DNA of 38,473 nucleotides from Melioribacteraceae bacterium (GTDB taxonomy: Bacteria; Bacteroidota; Ignavibacteria; Ignavibacteriales; Melioribacteraceae). The notes beneath the pieces are model-generated. The model had not been told where the DNA came from and searched no databases. It saw only the letters and a list, made by a program, of their open reading frames with translations. A program made the position numbers and the translations under genes. Each line of letters starts with the position of its first letter. The first letter of the stretch is position 1. Positions 1 through 10,564 of the stretch are shown one piece after another. The stretch lies in assembly GCA_027030245.1 (NCBI GenBank), contig JALVFE010000015.1, forward strand, positions 1 through 38,473, in the 5' to 3' direction.

Positions 1-560
1 TATGTGTCATAGACGGTTCAAAGGGCTTAAGGAAAGCAGTAAAAGAGACATTTGGCAAATACTGTTTAATACAGAGATGTAATTGGCATAAAAGAGAAAA
101 TGTAGTGAGTTATCTAAATGAAAAAGATCAGGAGTTCTACCGTCACAGGATGCAATCAGCCTATAGAGAACCGACATATGAAGGAGCAAAGAGCAGACTT
201 ATGGAAATACTTAATGACTTGGAGAAGAAGAATCGCTCGGCAGCGAATTCATTGAAGGAAGGTTTAGAAGAGACATTAACATTGCATAGATTAGGTTTGG
301 TAGTTGAGTTAGGCAGATCATTATCGACAACGAATTCGATAGAAAATGTCAATTCAAAACTTGCAAGATATTTAAGAAAAGTAAAACATTGGAAATCACC
401 GGATATGCTTGCAAGGTGGGTTGTATTAGGTTTAATTGAAGTTGAATCGAGATTAAGAAGAATACACAATTATAAAAAATTGTATCTATTAAGAGCTGCA
501 TTAAAAACTGAATTAGGATTAAATCAATCAAAGGTTGCTTAATTTATGTGGAGTCTCTCT
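1..560 (+). mobile_element. Partial IS256-family insertion sequence, right part
   Basis: The window begins inside an insertion sequence, of which only the 3' half of the transposase gene and its downstream flank are visible. Because the other end lies outside the window, the terminal inverted repeat and target duplication cannot be located. The right boundary given here is a guess, placed just after the transposase stop; the true end could lie anywhere up to about 600, before the methylmalonyl-CoA mutase gene. Confidence 0.7.
3..542 (+). CDS. IS256-family (mutator-type) transposase, C-terminal part
   Basis: This is the C-terminal part of a DDE transposase of the IS256/mutator family, which cuts and pastes or copies its own element. 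The frame is open from position 3 to the stop at 540-542, so the gene starts outside the window; a GTG at 105 is internal, not the start. Visible landmarks in order are the DGSKGL block carrying the second catalytic Asp, the QRCNWHK block, the EGLEETLTLHRLGL block, and the STTNSIENVN block, which probably carries the catalytic Glu. The tail LRRIHNYKKLYLLRAAL is typical of the family. No frameshift or internal stop is seen in the visible part, so the element could be intact. Confidence 0.88.
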   Translation, partial: CVIDGSKGLRKAVKETFGKYCLIQRCNWHKRENVVSYLNEKDQEFYRHRMQSAYREPTYEGAKSRLMEILNDLEKKNRSAANSLKEGLEETLTLHRLGLVVELGRSLSTTNSIENVNSKLARYLRKVKHWKSPDMLARWVVLGLIEVESRLRRIHNYKKLYLLRAALKTELGLNQSKVA

Positions 561-5220: not shown

Positions 5221-5251
5221 GGAGAATAATTTTCTCCCTTTTTATTTTTTT
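5221..5251 (+). terminator. Intrinsic terminator-like hairpin just before the 5.25 kb element
   Basis: GGAGAA (5221-5226) pairs with TTCTCC (5232-5237) over a five-base loop and is followed by a T-rich run to 5251. It may end transcription from the M1 peptidase side. The T-run directly abuts the GAGCCT element at 5252, the same layout as at 6472-6505. Confidence 0.55.
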
Positions 5252-5281
5252 GAGCCTCTTCACTTCTCTTTTACGCATATA
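5252..5281 (+). promoter_or_regulatory. Shared bipartite upstream element, copy 1 (GAGCCT-N10-CTTTTACGCATATA)
   Basis: GAGCCT at 5252-5257 is followed after ten bases by CTTTTACGCATATA at 5268-5281, ending 32 bases before the ATG at 5314. The identical two blocks with identical spacing occur at 6505-6534 and 9214-9243, each 30-45 bases before a start codon. Position and bipartite form suggest a promoter read by an alternative sigma factor, or an activator site overlapping one. Confidence 0.65.
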
Positions 5282-5313
5282 GAATATAAATAACATTTTA
5301 ACGGAGGAAAACT

Positions 5314-6219
5314 ATGAAATTTGTTAAATATTTTTTAGGGCTTGTCCTATTGTTATCATACTCACAAGTAAATTCTCAAGTTGTAACTATTGAAGAGTTG
5401 GATATATTACATGCATACAGACATTCCGATCCTCAATTCGGAGATAATATGCCCGAGTTGCATGACAATGATTTAAATACCTATGCAACTTGGAAAGTTG
5501 GAAATGTAAATAATCCCGATTGGGGAATAATTGAATTATATTATTCCTTTTTCGTAATTACTGAAATTCAATTGTATCCCAAATACCTTGGTTACCCGCA
5601 TAGCTGGGATTTTAACATCTATATAAGAAGACAGTTTGAAAGTGGCGACGGAACATTGGTTTATACAAATGACCAATATTTGCAGCCTCAAGAATGGATA
5701 TCGATCCCCGTAGATGATGTACCGGGATATGAAGTAATTTTTAAAGGTTCGGATAATACGCCCGTAAACGGAACGGACATTGGATTTTACGAAATTAAAG
5801 TACTTGGCCGGTATAAAGTTGATGATATTATAACAAAAATCTTTTTAGAAGGACCATATGAAAATGGAAACATGGGAGAAGGAAGAACATATATACCAAC
5901 CAGCCAACCGTTTTTTAATAAATACGGATATAACGGAACGGAAGTAATACAAGACCCTAATCCAAGCACATTTATAACAAATCATAAGGTAATTGATTGG
6001 GTTTTGTTAGAAATTTATAGGGGAACACCTCCGGATAATTTATCGCTATTTAGCAGTCGGGCAGCATTATTAACAAGTGACGGAGATGTAATAGAGACCG
6101 ATGGAACCTCCGGTGTTGAAATTAAAGTATTTGGCAATGAAAGTTATTACTTGGTAATTAGACAAATGAACCATTTAGACGTGATGAGTTCGGAAAAAAT
6201 TTATCTACCCGGTCACTAA
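5314..6219 (+). CDS. Secreted discoidin-like protein with a C-terminal KxFLEGP domain
   Basis: A predicted exported protein of 301 residues with no assigned function. The signal peptide covers about residues 1-22 (ending NSQ). Residues about 25-165 resemble a galactose-binding (F5/8 type C, discoidin) fold: a DNDLNTYATWKV stretch, a strand with ITEIQLYP, and a buried SWDFNIYIR. From Lys175 (KIFLEGPYENG) to the end is a domain of Bacteroidota surface proteins, recognised by DWVLLEIYRG, SRAALL, DTDG-like and NHLDVMSS blocks. The same domain ends the next gene. There is no T9SS sorting tail, although a decayed one lies just downstream at 6272-6426. A GGAGG precedes the ATG, which follows copy 1 of the shared element. 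Carbohydrate or surface binding is an inference from the fold. Confidence 0.75.
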   Translation: MKFVKYFLGLVLLLSYSQVNSQVVTIEELDILHAYRHSDPQFGDNMPELHDNDLNTYATWKVGNVNNPDWGIIELYYSFFVITEIQLYPKYLGYPHSWDFNIYIRRQFESGDGTLVYTNDQYLQPQEWISIPVDDVPGYEVIFKGSDNTPVNGTDIGFYEIKVLGRYKVDDIITKIFLEGPYENGNMGEGRTYIPTSQPFFNKYGYNGTEVIQDPNPSTFITNHKVIDWVLLEIYRGTPPDNLSLFSSRAALLTSDGDVIETDGTSGVEIKVFGNESYYLVIRQMNHLDVMSSEKIYLPGH

Positions 6220-6271
6220 TTAAACCAAAATTATTATGAGTTTTTTCTTTTCTTCTCAGACTAATAGTAAT

Positions 6272-6426
6272 AACATTTTAATGAAAGAAGTAGCAACACT
6301 TGTAAAGAAAAAACAATATCCCGGTTTTATGAAGTTACTTGTGATGACTCAAATCTGCCAAATGGAATTTATGACTATAAACTTTAAACCGGCATTTTTG
6401 TTGAAATTAAGAAGATGATTCTATAA
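6272..6426 (+). pseudogene. Decayed T9SS C-terminal sorting domain
   Basis: The first frame reads NNILMKEVATLVKKKQYPGF from about 6272. After the TTT at 6326-6328 homology continues one frame over as YEVTCDDSNLPNGIYDYKL, then an in-frame TAA (6385-6387), then TGIFVEIKKMIL and a natural stop at 6424-6426. Intact tails of this kind read NILGKEVATLV, YEV, DAxNLPSGIYxYKL and AGxFxxxKKMIL. The remnant therefore has a one-base deletion at the GGTTTTATG stretch and a nonsense mutation. It may be the lost tail of the preceding gene or of another exported protein removed by rearrangement. Confidence 0.75.
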
Positions 6427-6471
6427 CGGTAAATAAGTGGACAAAATATTAACATTAAATAAAACTCAAAA

Positions 6472-6504
6472 GGGAGAAGAATTTTCTCCCTTCTTTATTT
6501 GTTT
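6472..6504 (+). terminator. Intrinsic terminator-like hairpin before copy 2 of the element
   Basis: GGGAGAA (6472-6478) pairs with TTCTCCC (6484-6490) across a five-base loop and is followed by TTCTTTATTTGTTT. It resembles the hairpin at 5221-5251 in stem, loop and contact with the following GAGCCT, so the whole hairpin plus element unit appears duplicated. Confidence 0.6.
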
Positions 6505-6534
6505 GAGCCTTTTCATTTATCTTTTACGCATATA
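6505..6534 (+). promoter_or_regulatory. Shared bipartite upstream element, copy 2
   Basis: GAGCCT at 6505-6510, ten bases, then CTTTTACGCATATA at 6521-6534, ending 39 bases before the ATG at 6574. Both blocks match copies 1 and 3 exactly. The intervening bases (TTTCATTTAT) resemble copy 1 (CTTCACTTCT) but not copy 3, so the two blocks are the conserved part. Confidence 0.65.
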
Positions 6535-6573
6535 CCAGTAAGACGAATTATCCTAATAGAATAGAGTAAAACA

Positions 6574-8661
6574 ATGAAAAAAATTTACATTCATTTTATG
6601 CTGTGTTTTTTAACAGCAACAATTTTTGCTCAAACGCAAAATGATTATGAAGTAATACAAACCCAAAAAAACGGAATAGTTGTTTTTGAAAAAGTTAACA
6701 AGAAAAAACTGCATAATAAATCCTTAGGGAAAACAAAATTAAATAGTCCGAACAGCACCTCAACCGTTACGTATTTGGCTAATGAAAGTTTTGAAACTTG
6801 GATACCTACGGGATGGGATGTTTACGCAGATGTTTCTTCGTGGGAACAAGATAACAGCGAGTTTCATACGGGGCAAAATTCTGCTTGGTCTACTGCGGAA
6901 CCTTATGCGGATACATGGCTCATAAGTCCTTCAATTGATTTAAGTACCGCCACTTCTGCATTTTTAAAATACTACGAAAACTTTTTTCTTCAAGATATAT
7001 ATTTGAACGACCAGTATAATGTACGTGTTTCAACAAATTACACAAATAACGGCAATCCCTACTCTGCAAGTTGGGACCTCATACATAGCGGCGTTGGTAC
7101 TGAAGATTCTTGGACATTCCAGGTGATAGATTTGCAAAATTATGTAGGAAGCAGTAATGTTTTTATTGCTTTCCAATATGTTGGCAGTGACGATGGTTCA
7201 GGTAATCCACCCTATGGTTACGATTGGTATATAGATGATGTAAGCGTTACCGATGATAGTTGTACCGGAACGGAACCCGCACCGGACTGTGCAACAATTG
7301 CTTCACCGCCAAATGGTTCTACTTTACTTCCAACCGACTTGCATGTTCAGTGGCATGAACCTGATTTTACGACAACAACAAAACAATTACTTTATGTCGG
7401 TACAGACGGCGGAGGAATAACCACACCGACAAATTATTATAACGGAATAGAACTCAGTTCAACAACTTTTGGTGTGCATGGTTCAACACCTTTAACACCA
7501 AACACTACTTACTATTGGCAAGTAATTCCGGTTAATTGTTCATCCGAAGCTCAAAATTGTCCTATTTGGTCCTTTACAACCGGAGACGGAAATGTAAATA
7601 CCGGAGGGGGCGGACCAACTCAGGGGGAATACATCTTTACAAACTCAATTGCCGGTACACAGTCTCAACCTACGTATAATTGGATAGACATTTCCGGTAC
7701 CGGCACCGATTTAATTTCCTCGATTGGTGATGAAGAAACCAAAGGACCTTATGATTTGGGTTTTTCATTTAATTTTTTTGGTAATATTTATACTCAGTTC
7801 TATATAAATTCAAACGGGTTTATTACTTTTACAAATACAACCGGCTCAACAAACTTTCCATTTGCAATTCCCGGTAATTACACCCCCGATAATATCATTG
7901 CCGGATATTGGATGAATTTAAATCCTACAAACGCAAATGTTACCGGCAAACATTTGTATTACGGAATGAAAAACGGGGAGATGGTTATTACTTATGAAAA
8001 ATATCCTCAAATATATTGGGATGGCTCTGCATACGTTCCCAACGATGCAAACGGCTGGATAACTTTTCAAATTATTCTTAACCCGAATGGAATTATCAAA
8101 ATTCAGTTTAAAGAAAAAGGAAGCTCTTTCGTTGACGCTGATTTTTATACCGGAACGGTAGGCATAGAAAACAGTAATGGAACTCAAGGAATTTCATACA
8201 GAAGACAAGATAAAGAAGGACCGATATTTGACGGAACCTCTCCTTTAGCAGTAGAATTTACTCCCGTTCATGTAAGTGCGGCAGTAAAAATATTTTTAGA
8301 AGGTCCGTTCAATTCCGGTAGTATGAGTACATCTTTAGGAACATCCATTCCATTAACACAGCCGTATTCTAATTCGCCGTGGAATTATAACGGTAACGAG
8401 AAAACAACACAATCTTTTATTTCAAATAATAATATAGTCGATTGGGTTTTAGTTGAATTAAGAACCGGCAGTTCGGCTGCAACGGCAACAACAGTTGTTT
8501 CAACAAGAGCAGCATTGCTTAGAAACGACGGTGTAATTTTAGATACGGACGGTTCAACCGATATAGATTTTTACGGAATAGGCAACGGTGATTATTATAT
8601 AGCCGTTTATCATAGAAATCATTTGGCAGTTCTGAGTTCTTCTTCCGTAAATCTGAATTAA
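6574..8661 (+). CDS. Secreted multidomain adhesin-like protein
   Basis: A 695-residue exported protein. A signal peptide covers about residues 1-19 (ending TIFAQ). Residues about 65-225 are a choice-of-anchor J / MAM-like domain (NESFETWIPTGWDV ... WLISPSIDLS ... YGYDWYIDDVSV). About 235-335 is fibronectin-III-like (PPNGSTLLPTDLHVQW ... TYYWQVIPVN). About 345-565 is a nidogen-like beta domain (SIGDEETKGPYDLGFSFNFF, FYINSNGFITF, GTVGIENSNG). From Lys572 (KIFLEGPFNSG) to the end is the same terminal domain as in the preceding gene, with DWVLVELRTG, TRAALLRNDG, DTDG and YHRNHLAVLSS. No T9SS tail is seen, so the mode of surface attachment is unclear. It follows copy 2 of the shared element. The regulator gene at 8684 starts 22 bases after its stop. 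Adhesion is inferred from domain type. Confidence 0.82.
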   Translation: MKKIYIHFMLCFLTATIFAQTQNDYEVIQTQKNGIVVFEKVNKKKLHNKSLGKTKLNSPNSTSTVTYLANESFETWIPTGWDVYADVSSWEQDNSEFHTGQNSAWSTAEPYADTWLISPSIDLSTATSAFLKYYENFFLQDIYLNDQYNVRVSTNYTNNGNPYSASWDLIHSGVGTEDSWTFQVIDLQNYVGSSNVFIAFQYVGSDDGSGNPPYGYDWYIDDVSVTDDSCTGTEPAPDCATIASPPNGSTLLPTDLHVQWHEPDFTTTTKQLLYVGTDGGGITTPTNYYNGIELSSTTFGVHGSTPLTPNTTYYWQVIPVNCSSEAQNCPIWSFTTGDGNVNTGGGGPTQGEYIFTNSIAGTQSQPTYNWIDISGTGTDLISSIGDEETKGPYDLGFSFNFFGNIYTQFYINSNGFITFTNTTGSTNFPFAIPGNYTPDNIIAGYWMNLNPTNANVTGKHLYYGMKNGEMVITYEKYPQIYWDGSAYVPNDANGWITFQIILNPNGIIKIQFKEKGSSFVDADFYTGTVGIENSNGTQGISYRRQDKEGPIFDGTSPLAVEFTPVHVSAAVKIFLEGPFNSGSMSTSLGTSIPLTQPYSNSPWNYNGNEKTTQSFISNNNIVDWVLVELRTGSSAATATTVVSTRAALLRNDGVILDTDGSTDIDFYGIGNGDYYIAVYHRNHLAVLSSSSVNLN

Positions 8662-8683
8662 ACAATTATTTATAGGAGTTAAC

Positions 8684-9163
8684 ATGAACTTAGAGCAGCT
8701 TGGAACAGATAATATTAAAATGCAATCAGAAGTTACAAATATCATGGAAAATCTGAATGTCATTGTATGTACAGTTAATGAAAAGGATGAAAACCATATT
8801 CAACTAATAATCTCGGAAAATGTTAAATATTCTACAAAAGCCAATACGGCATCGGATATTTTTAGGATAATAAGAAATAATTACGAATCCATATTTTCCC
8901 AAAATAATTACAATAAAAAGATAGTTTTTCTGCTTGAAAAACCGGAACAACAGAACGAAACCAAGTTGCTGAGCGAAAGGGAAAAAGAAGTTTTATCATT
9001 CCTTGCTTTGGGGAAACGATATAAGCAAATTGCCGATGCTTTATTTATCAGTGTTAACACAGTACATTTTCATATAAAAAATATCTACAAAAAATTAAAC
9101 GTTCACTCACAATTGGAAGCAGTAAATATAGCTGCAAAAATGGGATTAATAGCAAGCGGTTGA
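8684..9163 (+). CDS. LuxR-family HTH transcriptional regulator without a receiver domain
   Basis: A 159-residue DNA-binding protein. Residues 96-154 form a LuxR/NarL-type four-helix HTH (LSEREKEVLSFLALGKRYKQ, then IADALFISVNTVHFHIKNIY and KKLNVHSQLEAV). The first 90 residues match no domain I recognise. They are too short and lack the Asp-Asp...Asp...Lys pattern of a phosphoreceiver, and no autoinducer-binding motif is visible. A TAGGAG six bases before the ATG supports the start. With 22 bases from the adhesin-like gene it is probably co-transcribed from element copy 2. It is the only regulator inside the three-element locus, which makes it the natural candidate to act on those elements; this is inference. 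Confidence 0.85.
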   Translation: MNLEQLGTDNIKMQSEVTNIMENLNVIVCTVNEKDENHIQLIISENVKYSTKANTASDIFRIIRNNYESIFSQNNYNKKIVFLLEKPEQQNETKLLSEREKEVLSFLALGKRYKQIADALFISVNTVHFHIKNIYKKLNVHSQLEAVNIAAKMGLIASG

Positions 9164-9213
9164 GTTTATTAAAAAAGAAGAGCAAAATAATTTTTCCCAT
9201 TTCAAAATATTAT

Positions 9214-9243
9214 GAGCCTTTCCGGAGCACTTTTACGCATATA
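9214..9243 (+). promoter_or_regulatory. Shared bipartite upstream element, copy 3
   Basis: GAGCCT at 9214-9219, ten bases, then CTTTTACGCATATA at 9230-9243, ending 42 bases before the GTG at 9286. The spacer differs almost completely from the other copies while both blocks are identical, which argues for selection on the blocks. Unlike copies 1 and 2 there is no hairpin directly upstream. Confidence 0.65.
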
Positions 9244-9285: not shown

Positions 9286-9876
9286 GTGAATTGTAGGAAT
9301 ATAAAAATAAAGATACTCATTCTAAGTTTAGTTATTGTACAAAGTACATTGGCTAACGGAAATACCAATGAAAAAAAATTATTGGATAGCAAAGTTGGTA
9401 AACAGACTAATATTTTATTGCTACGTTATAATTTAAAGAACTTTATCGTTTCCGATAAACTTAACAATAAAAAGAATCCGGTTTATAATGATGACGATTA
9501 TAAATCCCCATGGTTAGCATTTTTTCTTTCGATGTTTCTACCGACAGGCGGTCAAATCTATAACGGTGATTATACAAAAGCTCTTATTCAAGGTGGATTA
9601 ATGATTGGAGGATTGGGTTTGGCTGCCGGCATGTCATGTGTTGAATGCGGAGAACCGGAATCGCCACAAAAGGCATTGTTCTTTACGGGAATCGGAATTG
9701 CTCTTTCGGGATATGTATGGTCAATAATTGACGCTCCGATATCTGCCAACAGACACAACAGCAGAATACAGAAAGGTTTAACAATTTGGAAATCGGATAA
9801 AGGAAAATATACTCTAAAAGTTAGTAGAAATTTATTTAGGGAAATTTACTCACTCAATCTGCAAGTAAAATTTTAA
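9286..9876 (+). CDS. Small exported/membrane protein with a TM2-like hydrophobic core
   Basis: A 196-residue protein of unknown function. I chose GTG at 9286 because GGGAG lies eight bases upstream, the product then begins with a good signal sequence (NIKIKILILSLVIVQSTLA), and longer starts would overlap element copy 3. After a polar stretch, residues about 74-150 carry PWLAFFLSMFLPTGGQIYNG and two or three hydrophobic helices separated by a CVECGEPES loop, reminiscent of TM2/DUF5683 proteins. The tail (YTLKVSRNLFREIYSLNLQVKF) is beta-rich. The outer-membrane barrel gene follows after 31 bases, so the two probably form one transcript controlled by the element. Confidence 0.65.
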   Translation: MNCRNIKIKILILSLVIVQSTLANGNTNEKKLLDSKVGKQTNILLLRYNLKNFIVSDKLNNKKNPVYNDDDYKSPWLAFFLSMFLPTGGQIYNGDYTKALIQGGLMIGGLGLAAGMSCVECGEPESPQKALFFTGIGIALSGYVWSIIDAPISANRHNSRIQKGLTIWKSDKGKYTLKVSRNLFREIYSLNLQVKF

Positions 9877-9907
9877 TTAAATGATAACACATAATTGGAG
9901 AAATAAA

Positions 9908-10564
9908 ATGAAAAACATATTTACCTCAATCATATTGATTTTATTTTTATCAAATATTTCGTACTCACAATTTAAAATGAAAGTGGGACCGACTTTAGGT
10001 TTAAATTTTAATATTGGTACCGGATCCGATTTAAATGAAACAGCAACAGGTCTTGGTCTTTTAATCGGAGCTCAAGTTGATATGAATTTTACTCGAACAA
10101 TCGGACTTATCACCAATGTTCAATTTTACGATAACAGAAGCGGGTCTTCCTCATCGGAAGGTACGCAGAGCGGAATTAGTTATTCGATAACAAGTAGTTC
10201 ATCATTAGCTTATTTTATGATTGAACCGTTGTTTAAATTAGACTTAACCGGAAGCAGATTATATTTTGTAATGGGACCAATGGTTGGCTTTAACATTGAA
10301 GCATCCTCGGAACTTAGACTTACTTCCCAAAATAACAGGCTAACTTTTACTGACGGAAGTACAAAAATCAAACAATCAATTAAAAATACCCTAGTGCGTT
10401 TTGGAATTAAAACCGGCGCCGGTTATAATATTCCGCTAAGCAGATTGGTAGAATTAACGCCTCAATTATATTTTGAGTACGGATTAACTAATATTCAGTC
10501 AAATGTTTCCGCCCGGATACTAACATTTCAAGCATTGGTTACCGCTAAATTTAATATCCTATAA
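9908..10564 (+). CDS. Outer-membrane beta-barrel protein, PorT-like
   Basis: A 218-residue predicted outer-membrane porin-fold protein. An ATG at 9908 with GGAG at 9897-9900 is preferred over the in-frame ATG at 9881. It gives a clean signal peptide (MKNIFTSIILILFLSNISYS). The mature part begins KMKVGPTLGLNFNIG, a typical first strand of the OMP_b-brl_2 family, and continues with alternating amphipathic strands ending in the aromatic-rich FQALVTAKFNIL. Such proteins in Bacteroidota are usually of unknown role, some assisting secretion. It closes the accessory locus and is followed by a strong terminator at 10574-10628. Confidence 0.75.
   Translation: MKNIFTSIILILFLSNISYSQFKMKVGPTLGLNFNIGTGSDLNETATGLGLLIGAQVDMNFTRTIGLITNVQFYDNRSGSSSSEGTQSGISYSITSSSSLAYFMIEPLFKLDLTGSRLYFVMGPMVGFNIEASSELRLTSQNNRLTFTDGSTKIKQSIKNTLVRFGIKTGAGYNIPLSRLVELTPQLYFEYGLTNIQSNVSARILTFQALVTAKFNIL

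Follow-up and report, generated by a model that had tools for sequence, protein, structure and literature searches.

Candidate promoters of a predicted kinase-activated ECF43-like sigma factor in a Melioribacteraceae bacterium and its relatives

The window analysed here (the whole stretch of DNA under study, a contig of 38,473 bases from a Melioribacteraceae bacterium) carries three identical two-block sites, which in our judgement are very probably −35/−10 promoters of one alternative sigma factor, namely the ECF43-like factor encoded together with a neighbouring kinase on another contig (C26) of the same genome. The best reading of the sequence is a regulon of four promoters, serving mostly exported proteins and governed by an ECF43-like sigma factor whose gene lies outside the window and which a kinase is predicted to activate. 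An earlier note on this DNA had suggested promoters for an alternative sigma factor, for instance one of the ECF type. That suggestion is supported by a fourth site and its three counterparts, all four of which immediately follow an ECF sigma-kinase operon in their respective genomes, and by the genome-by-genome co-occurrence of site and sigma factor in the sampled family. The same note spoke of a local regulon; this holds only in part, because a different contig carries both the sigma factor gene and the fourth promoter. Because the same site adjoins relatives of the C26 sigma factor in other bacteria, the genes of the regulon can be predicted, and once a promoter is defined, the sigma-kinase pair has a regulon that can be predicted and an output that can be tested.

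Three identical sites before gene starts

The motif GAGCCT-N10-CTTTTACGCATATA occurs at 5252, 6505 and 9214 on the forward strand, with all three copies exact as the earlier note had it, and the distances that it gave from block end to start codon (ATG, ATG and GTG) are correct (Table 1). These are the only window matches at ≤3 mismatches, in keeping with the claim that the window holds no further full copy, and 100 dinucleotide shuffles of the window gave 0 matches. The invariant part is one base longer than first noted, with a T preceding GAGCCT in 3/3 copies, which makes TGAGCCT and CTTTTACGCATATA the invariant blocks. The sites fit an ECF promoter with −35 TGAGCC, 17 bases and −10 CGCATA, and TTTT is conserved before the −10. 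As for ECF sigma promoters generally, the motif has two blocks ∼16–17 bases apart, near gene starts and beside a presumed cognate sigma gene (see below).

The spacer of copy 3 was said to be unrelated to the other two, and it indeed has only 3/10 bases in common with each, whilst the spacers of copies 1 and 2 are alike at 7/10. Since copies 1 and 2 also each lie behind a terminator-like hairpin, they may be related by duplication. The region contains five such hairpins against a shuffle mean of 4.3, i.e. no excess.

Table 1. Features of the window and of related loci (window coordinates unless a contig is named; G000 is the genome of this bacterium, G005 a relative)
Feature	Location	Strand	Remarks
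Reading frame at window start	105-542		resembles a transposase end (by eye)
Terminator-like hairpin	5221..5237	+	just upstream of site 1
Promoter-like site 1	5251..5281	+	TGAGCCT-N10-CTTTTACGCATATA, exact; 32 bases before ATG 5314
Gene 1, 301 aa	5314..6219	+	signal-like N-terminus (by eye); C-terminal domain in common with gene 2; no Pfam match
Terminator-like hairpin	6470..6492	+	just upstream of site 2
Promoter-like site 2	6504..6534	+	TGAGCCT-N10-CTTTTACGCATATA, exact; 39 bases before ATG 6574
Gene 2, 695 aa	6574..8661	+	signal-like N-terminus (by eye)
LuxR-type (GerE) regulator, 159 aa	8684..9163	+	22 bases behind gene 2
Promoter-like site 3	9213..9243	+	TGAGCCT-N10-CTTTTACGCATATA, exact; 42 bases before GTG 9286; 49 bases behind LuxR-type gene
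Gene 3, 196 aa from GTG	9286..9876	+	DUF5683 match weak, below cut-off
Outer-membrane beta-barrel protein (PF13568)	9881..10564	+	4 bases behind gene 3
ECF sigma factor, PF07638/TIGR02999 (ECF43-like)	G000:C26:4586-5149		
Membrane Ser/Thr kinase with TPR repeats	G000:C26:5167-7725		17 bases behind sigma gene
Fourth site	G000:C26:7743-7773		starts 17 bases behind kinase gene stop; 42 bases before start of 29-codon reading frame
29-codon frame, then at once two transposase-like frames	G000:C26:7816-9268 (L025)		transposase-like frames on opposite strand (label by eye)
Relative of the 6574 protein	G005:C24:58446-59987		53% over residues 42-571 of the 6574 protein

A fourth site behind a sigma-kinase operon

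The motif was searched for in the complete assembly (3,808,077 bases, 40 contigs), as the earlier note had proposed. A single extra site at ≤3 mismatches was found, GAGCCA-N10-CTTTTACGCATGTA at C26:7744-7773, behind an ECF sigma-kinase operon. Five of the one-mismatch copies of CTTTTACGCATATA were viewed in context and discarded, 0/5 having GAGCCT at the right distance. A refined pattern, TGAGCCW-N11-TTTTNCGCATRTA, was drawn up from the window, C26 and related sites; it matched this genome at four places with 0 mismatches, at none with 1–2 and at four with 3, against two places in all for its reversed control. The window sites (TGAGCCT...CATATA) differ from the four operon-linked sites (TGAGCCA...CATGT) at two positions, with T for A and A for G. 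The short frame behind the fourth site looks as though an insertion had cut the gene.

The C26 sigma factor scored 192 bits against PF07638 (cut-off 21.1) and 217 bits against TIGR02999 (cut-off 126), models that we take to stand for ECF43. It is the only strong match of this type in the genome, where three other ECF genes reached E about 4e-4. The factor may instead belong to a kinase-linked group such as ECF59, 61, 62 or 217. The kinase (Pkinase E 1.7e-48) retains its catalytic motifs; a strongly hydrophobic stretch begins at residue 399 and is followed by the TPR repeats. Region 2.2 of the sigma factor reads QTTE here and in the related genomes G001, G005 and G411, with the acidic DxxD absent and a Thr at the described place. 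Upstream of the sigma gene there was no site at ≤3 mismatches that would point to autoregulation of the operon.

Conservation in related genomes

Corresponding operons were present in G001, G005 and G411, each with a sigma factor 69–79% identical to that on C26 followed by a kinase-TPR gene, and in each the site lies 35–68 bases behind the kinase. This kinase-linked site is the best match of the genome in G001 and G005 and one of two equal best in G411; the second G411 site, on another contig, is followed after 44 bases by a gene for a protein with a signal-like N-terminus. When the four gaps behind the operons were compared without alignment gaps, the 21 block positions agreed in 112/126 pairwise comparisons (89%), as against 18/60 for the spacer and 82/240 and 64/216 for the flanks (30–34%). 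Thus, the blocks are conserved and their surroundings are not.

Site and sigma factor also go together within the family. Among 26 sampled genomes, a sigma factor of this type (E ≤1e-25) was found in this genome and G005 only, and no genome but these two had a site at ≤1 mismatch. Two genomes of the same genus that have no orthologous sigma factor (G002 and G003) had no site at ≤2 mismatches; G002 encodes a relative that is 46% identical to the C26 sigma factor and is not its orthologue.

Genes behind the window sites

The LuxR-type gene is presumably transcribed together with gene 2, and the beta-barrel gene presumably together with gene 3 (Table 1). The products of genes 1 and 2 have a C-terminal domain in common (39% over 127 residues) that gave no Pfam match. 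Its predicted fold is confident (pLDDT 85) and the model had no PDB match at E ≤0.001, whilst a single-sequence model of the whole gene 1 product was unusable (pLDDT 31). Many more copies of this domain (∼125 residues; window 5836-6207 and 8287-8658) were seen in this genome and its relatives. With the whole 6574 protein (gene 2) as query, 21 places in its own genome matched, both window genes included, mostly via the C-terminal domain.

Matches to the 6574 protein were present in 21 of 30 genomes searched, its own included. Across the 29 others, the sole match covering more than half of the protein was in G005 (Table 1), ∼2 kb downstream of the site at the G005 sigma-kinase operon. A second, weaker site (3 mismatches) stands between that site and the relative; a gene begins 36 bases downstream of this weaker site and in turn precedes the relative by 36 bases.

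Occurrence beyond the Ignavibacteria

A weight matrix built from seven sites was run over 59 ECF loci, three of which hold training sites, with 40 column-permuted controls per locus. All 40 controls were outscored at four of the 56 held-out loci (∼1.4 loci expected by chance), at three of them in non-coding DNA: L069 (Terriglobia) clearly, at 30.4 versus 16.5 for the controls; L078 (Planctomycetota) clearly, at 19.2 versus 13.2; and L071 (Acidobacteriota) marginally, at 16.1 versus 16.0. The matrix match in L092 fell within coding sequence and was dropped, as were the Bryobacterales matches as a group (L092, L093 and L095), which lie within coding sequence and have surroundings that are alike. 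At L069, three strong sites lie beside the ECF43-like gene, and despite their closeness (sigma factors 48–58% identical) L067, L068 and L070 had no good site. The genome of L069 (G414) has four sites at ≤2 mismatches, and its ECF43-like gene shares a contig with three of these. For 3/4 a downstream gene can be named, starting 119, 245 and 484 bases away, farther than in Ignavibacteria. Near-identical sequence stands upstream of two to three of the G414 sites (L069 48, L069 2744 and L234 9913), which looks as though promoter segments had been copied before different genes. In G355, a site lies between the ECF43-like gene and its kinase.

Sites were also selected by the −10 block alone. TTTNCGCAT was sought within 300 bases of 82 ECF43-like genes, with 100 permuted patterns as the control. 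It occurred near 6/82 genes (permuted mean 1.08, maximum 5), and the seven sites at these six genes had TG (7/7), in most cases TGA (6/7), at the same distance upstream. TTTTNCGCAT was near 5/82 genes (permuted mean 0.45, maximum 3). The signal was weaker for TTTNCGCATNT (3/82, with 1/100 permuted patterns reaching 3) and CGCATGTA (3/82, with 4/100 reaching 3), and TGAGCCA alone was not enriched near these genes (3/82, equalled by 66/100 permuted patterns). The other 76/82 genes had no TTTNCGCAT within 300 bases, so their promoters would lie elsewhere, or other sub-clades would read other sequences.

A phylum-wide search at ≤1 mismatch found 55 places in 45/395 genomes, against 31 for the reversed control (counted by hand), and these matches are mostly due to chance. 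Four of the 55 are in the genome of this bacterium and one is in G005. From the other 50 places, 40 regions were examined, the remaining 10 all coming from one family (f26); the gene beside the site was ECF43-like in one region and an RpoE-like ECF gene in five, and 34 regions had no ECF43-like profile match (E ≤1e-3).

With slightly less than even confidence, we propose that TGA(G)CC-N11-TTTTNCGCAT(R)T represents an ancient kind of promoter belonging to kinase-controlled ECF43-like sigma factors and retained by sub-clades in Ignavibacteria, other Bacteroidota, Acidobacteriota and Planctomycetota. Many uncharacterised sigma-kinase regulons might thus be readable from sequence; in Ignavibacteria these would be small sets, mostly of exported cell-surface proteins.

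Alternative explanations

The five RpoE-like cases raise the possibility that the sites, though ECF promoters, serve a different factor of the genome, an RpoE-like ECF, with the site at the C26 kinase operon as one of its targets. In family f32 (L157, L158, L161, L162 and L163), a similar site adjoins an RpoE-like ECF gene, and the genome of this bacterium has nine genes matching that factor, at best with 35% identity. Yet 0/4 of its zero-mismatch sites lie beside any of the nine RpoE-like genes, and four genomes have the site together with the ECF43-like operon, whilst genomes without the operon lack it, so that we regard this reading as improbable. The f32 sites do support the ECF nature of the motif whilst weakening its tie to one sigma family: given their position beside an RpoE-like ECF gene, the motif is perhaps not specific to one family, and similar promoters may be recognised by ECF factors of two unrelated families. 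As 5/5 of these f32 genomes also encode an ECF43-like gene elsewhere, the reader of the f32 sites could be either factor. Near position 9950 of each f32 locus, a site of closely similar form stands before genes with signal-like N-termini.

The earlier note also offered an activator site, and the LuxR-type gene between copies 2 and 3 would be a possible source of a protein that binds beside ordinary promoters. This has become the less likely of the note's two options, and we give it little credence, because no close relative of the gene is near the sites of other genomes: the best LuxR relatives in G001, G005, G411 and G414 (31–37% identity) are on contigs other than those with the sites. Moreover, neither block is a repeat of the other, and the pair has the spacing of ECF promoters and lies near start codons. 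That the copies are functionless remnants of duplicated or mobile segments is scarcely credible. Copies 1 and 2 do resemble each other in spacer and upstream hairpin, and genes 1 and 2 have their C-terminal domain in common; but the spacer of copy 3 departs from both, the blocks are conserved across four genomes where the surroundings are not, and the genome contains no partial copies at 1–2 mismatches. Promoters of the C26 ECF43-like factor thus remain the preferred reading.

A model for the regulon

By analogy with EcfP/PknT and EcfK/PknS, some signal would cause the C26 kinase to phosphorylate a Thr in sigma region 2.2 (QTTE), whereupon the phosphorylated sigma factor would bind RNA polymerase and direct transcription of four units, with putative limits: the short gene behind the kinase, 5314-6219, 6574-9163 and 9286-10564. 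The predicted output is mostly exported or envelope proteins, together with one LuxR-type regulator that could supply a second tier within the regulon. The C26 kinase would accordingly serve as a receptor kinase, turning on four promoters. For Ignavibacteria, this suggests a role in which a handful of exported proteins is switched on by an envelope signal.

Comparison with known systems

ECF43-kinase pairs are already known, and kinase-activated ECF sigma factors are widespread, although the reviews consulted describe few of them (PMC13147305, PMC8999054, PMC8103513). No target promoter for such pairs was found in the portions of the literature searched; as the main ECF classification paper lay outside that search, we do not claim priority. 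A literature search with the motif letters brought up, among the matches listed, only apparently unrelated papers.

ECF41 promoters, as excerpted in PMC3426412, resemble the sites described here in having two conserved blocks with a 16 ± 1 base spacer and very few targets, and in having been recognised by genome comparison. They differ in their −35 (TGTCACA) and −10 (CGTC), and ECF41 is controlled by a C-terminal extension rather than by a kinase. The f32 locus likewise has a similar two-block site beside an ECF gene and ahead of genes whose products have signal-like N-termini, but its sigma factor is of another family, its match to the ECF43-like profile reaching no better than E about 1e-5, and has, unlike the factor here, an acidic region 2.2.

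The closest parallels are with EcfP/PknT of Vibrio parahaemolyticus and EcfK/PknS of Xanthomonas citri, in which, as here, the ECF gene adjoins a gene for a membrane Ser/Thr kinase. According to the excerpts of PMC8999054 and PMC8103513, ECF43 sigma factors lack the usual acidic residues in region 2.2 and gain activity only once a Thr there is phosphorylated by a neighbouring Hanks-type kinase; for EcfK, the excerpted account adds that linker phosphosites matter too and that the T51A variant is functional (PMC13147305). Region 2.2 is without DxxD and has Thr at the described place in all three systems, reading STTA in EcfP and QATE in EcfK in the excerpted texts and QTTE here, which agrees with the ECF43 pattern as represented there by QTTA, STTA and QATE. 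Phosphorylation is a prediction in the present case and, unlike in the two known systems, predicted targets also lie on another contig. Whereas the targets of EcfP/PknT and EcfK/PknS are polymyxin resistance or a type VI secretion system, those predicted here are exported and envelope proteins.
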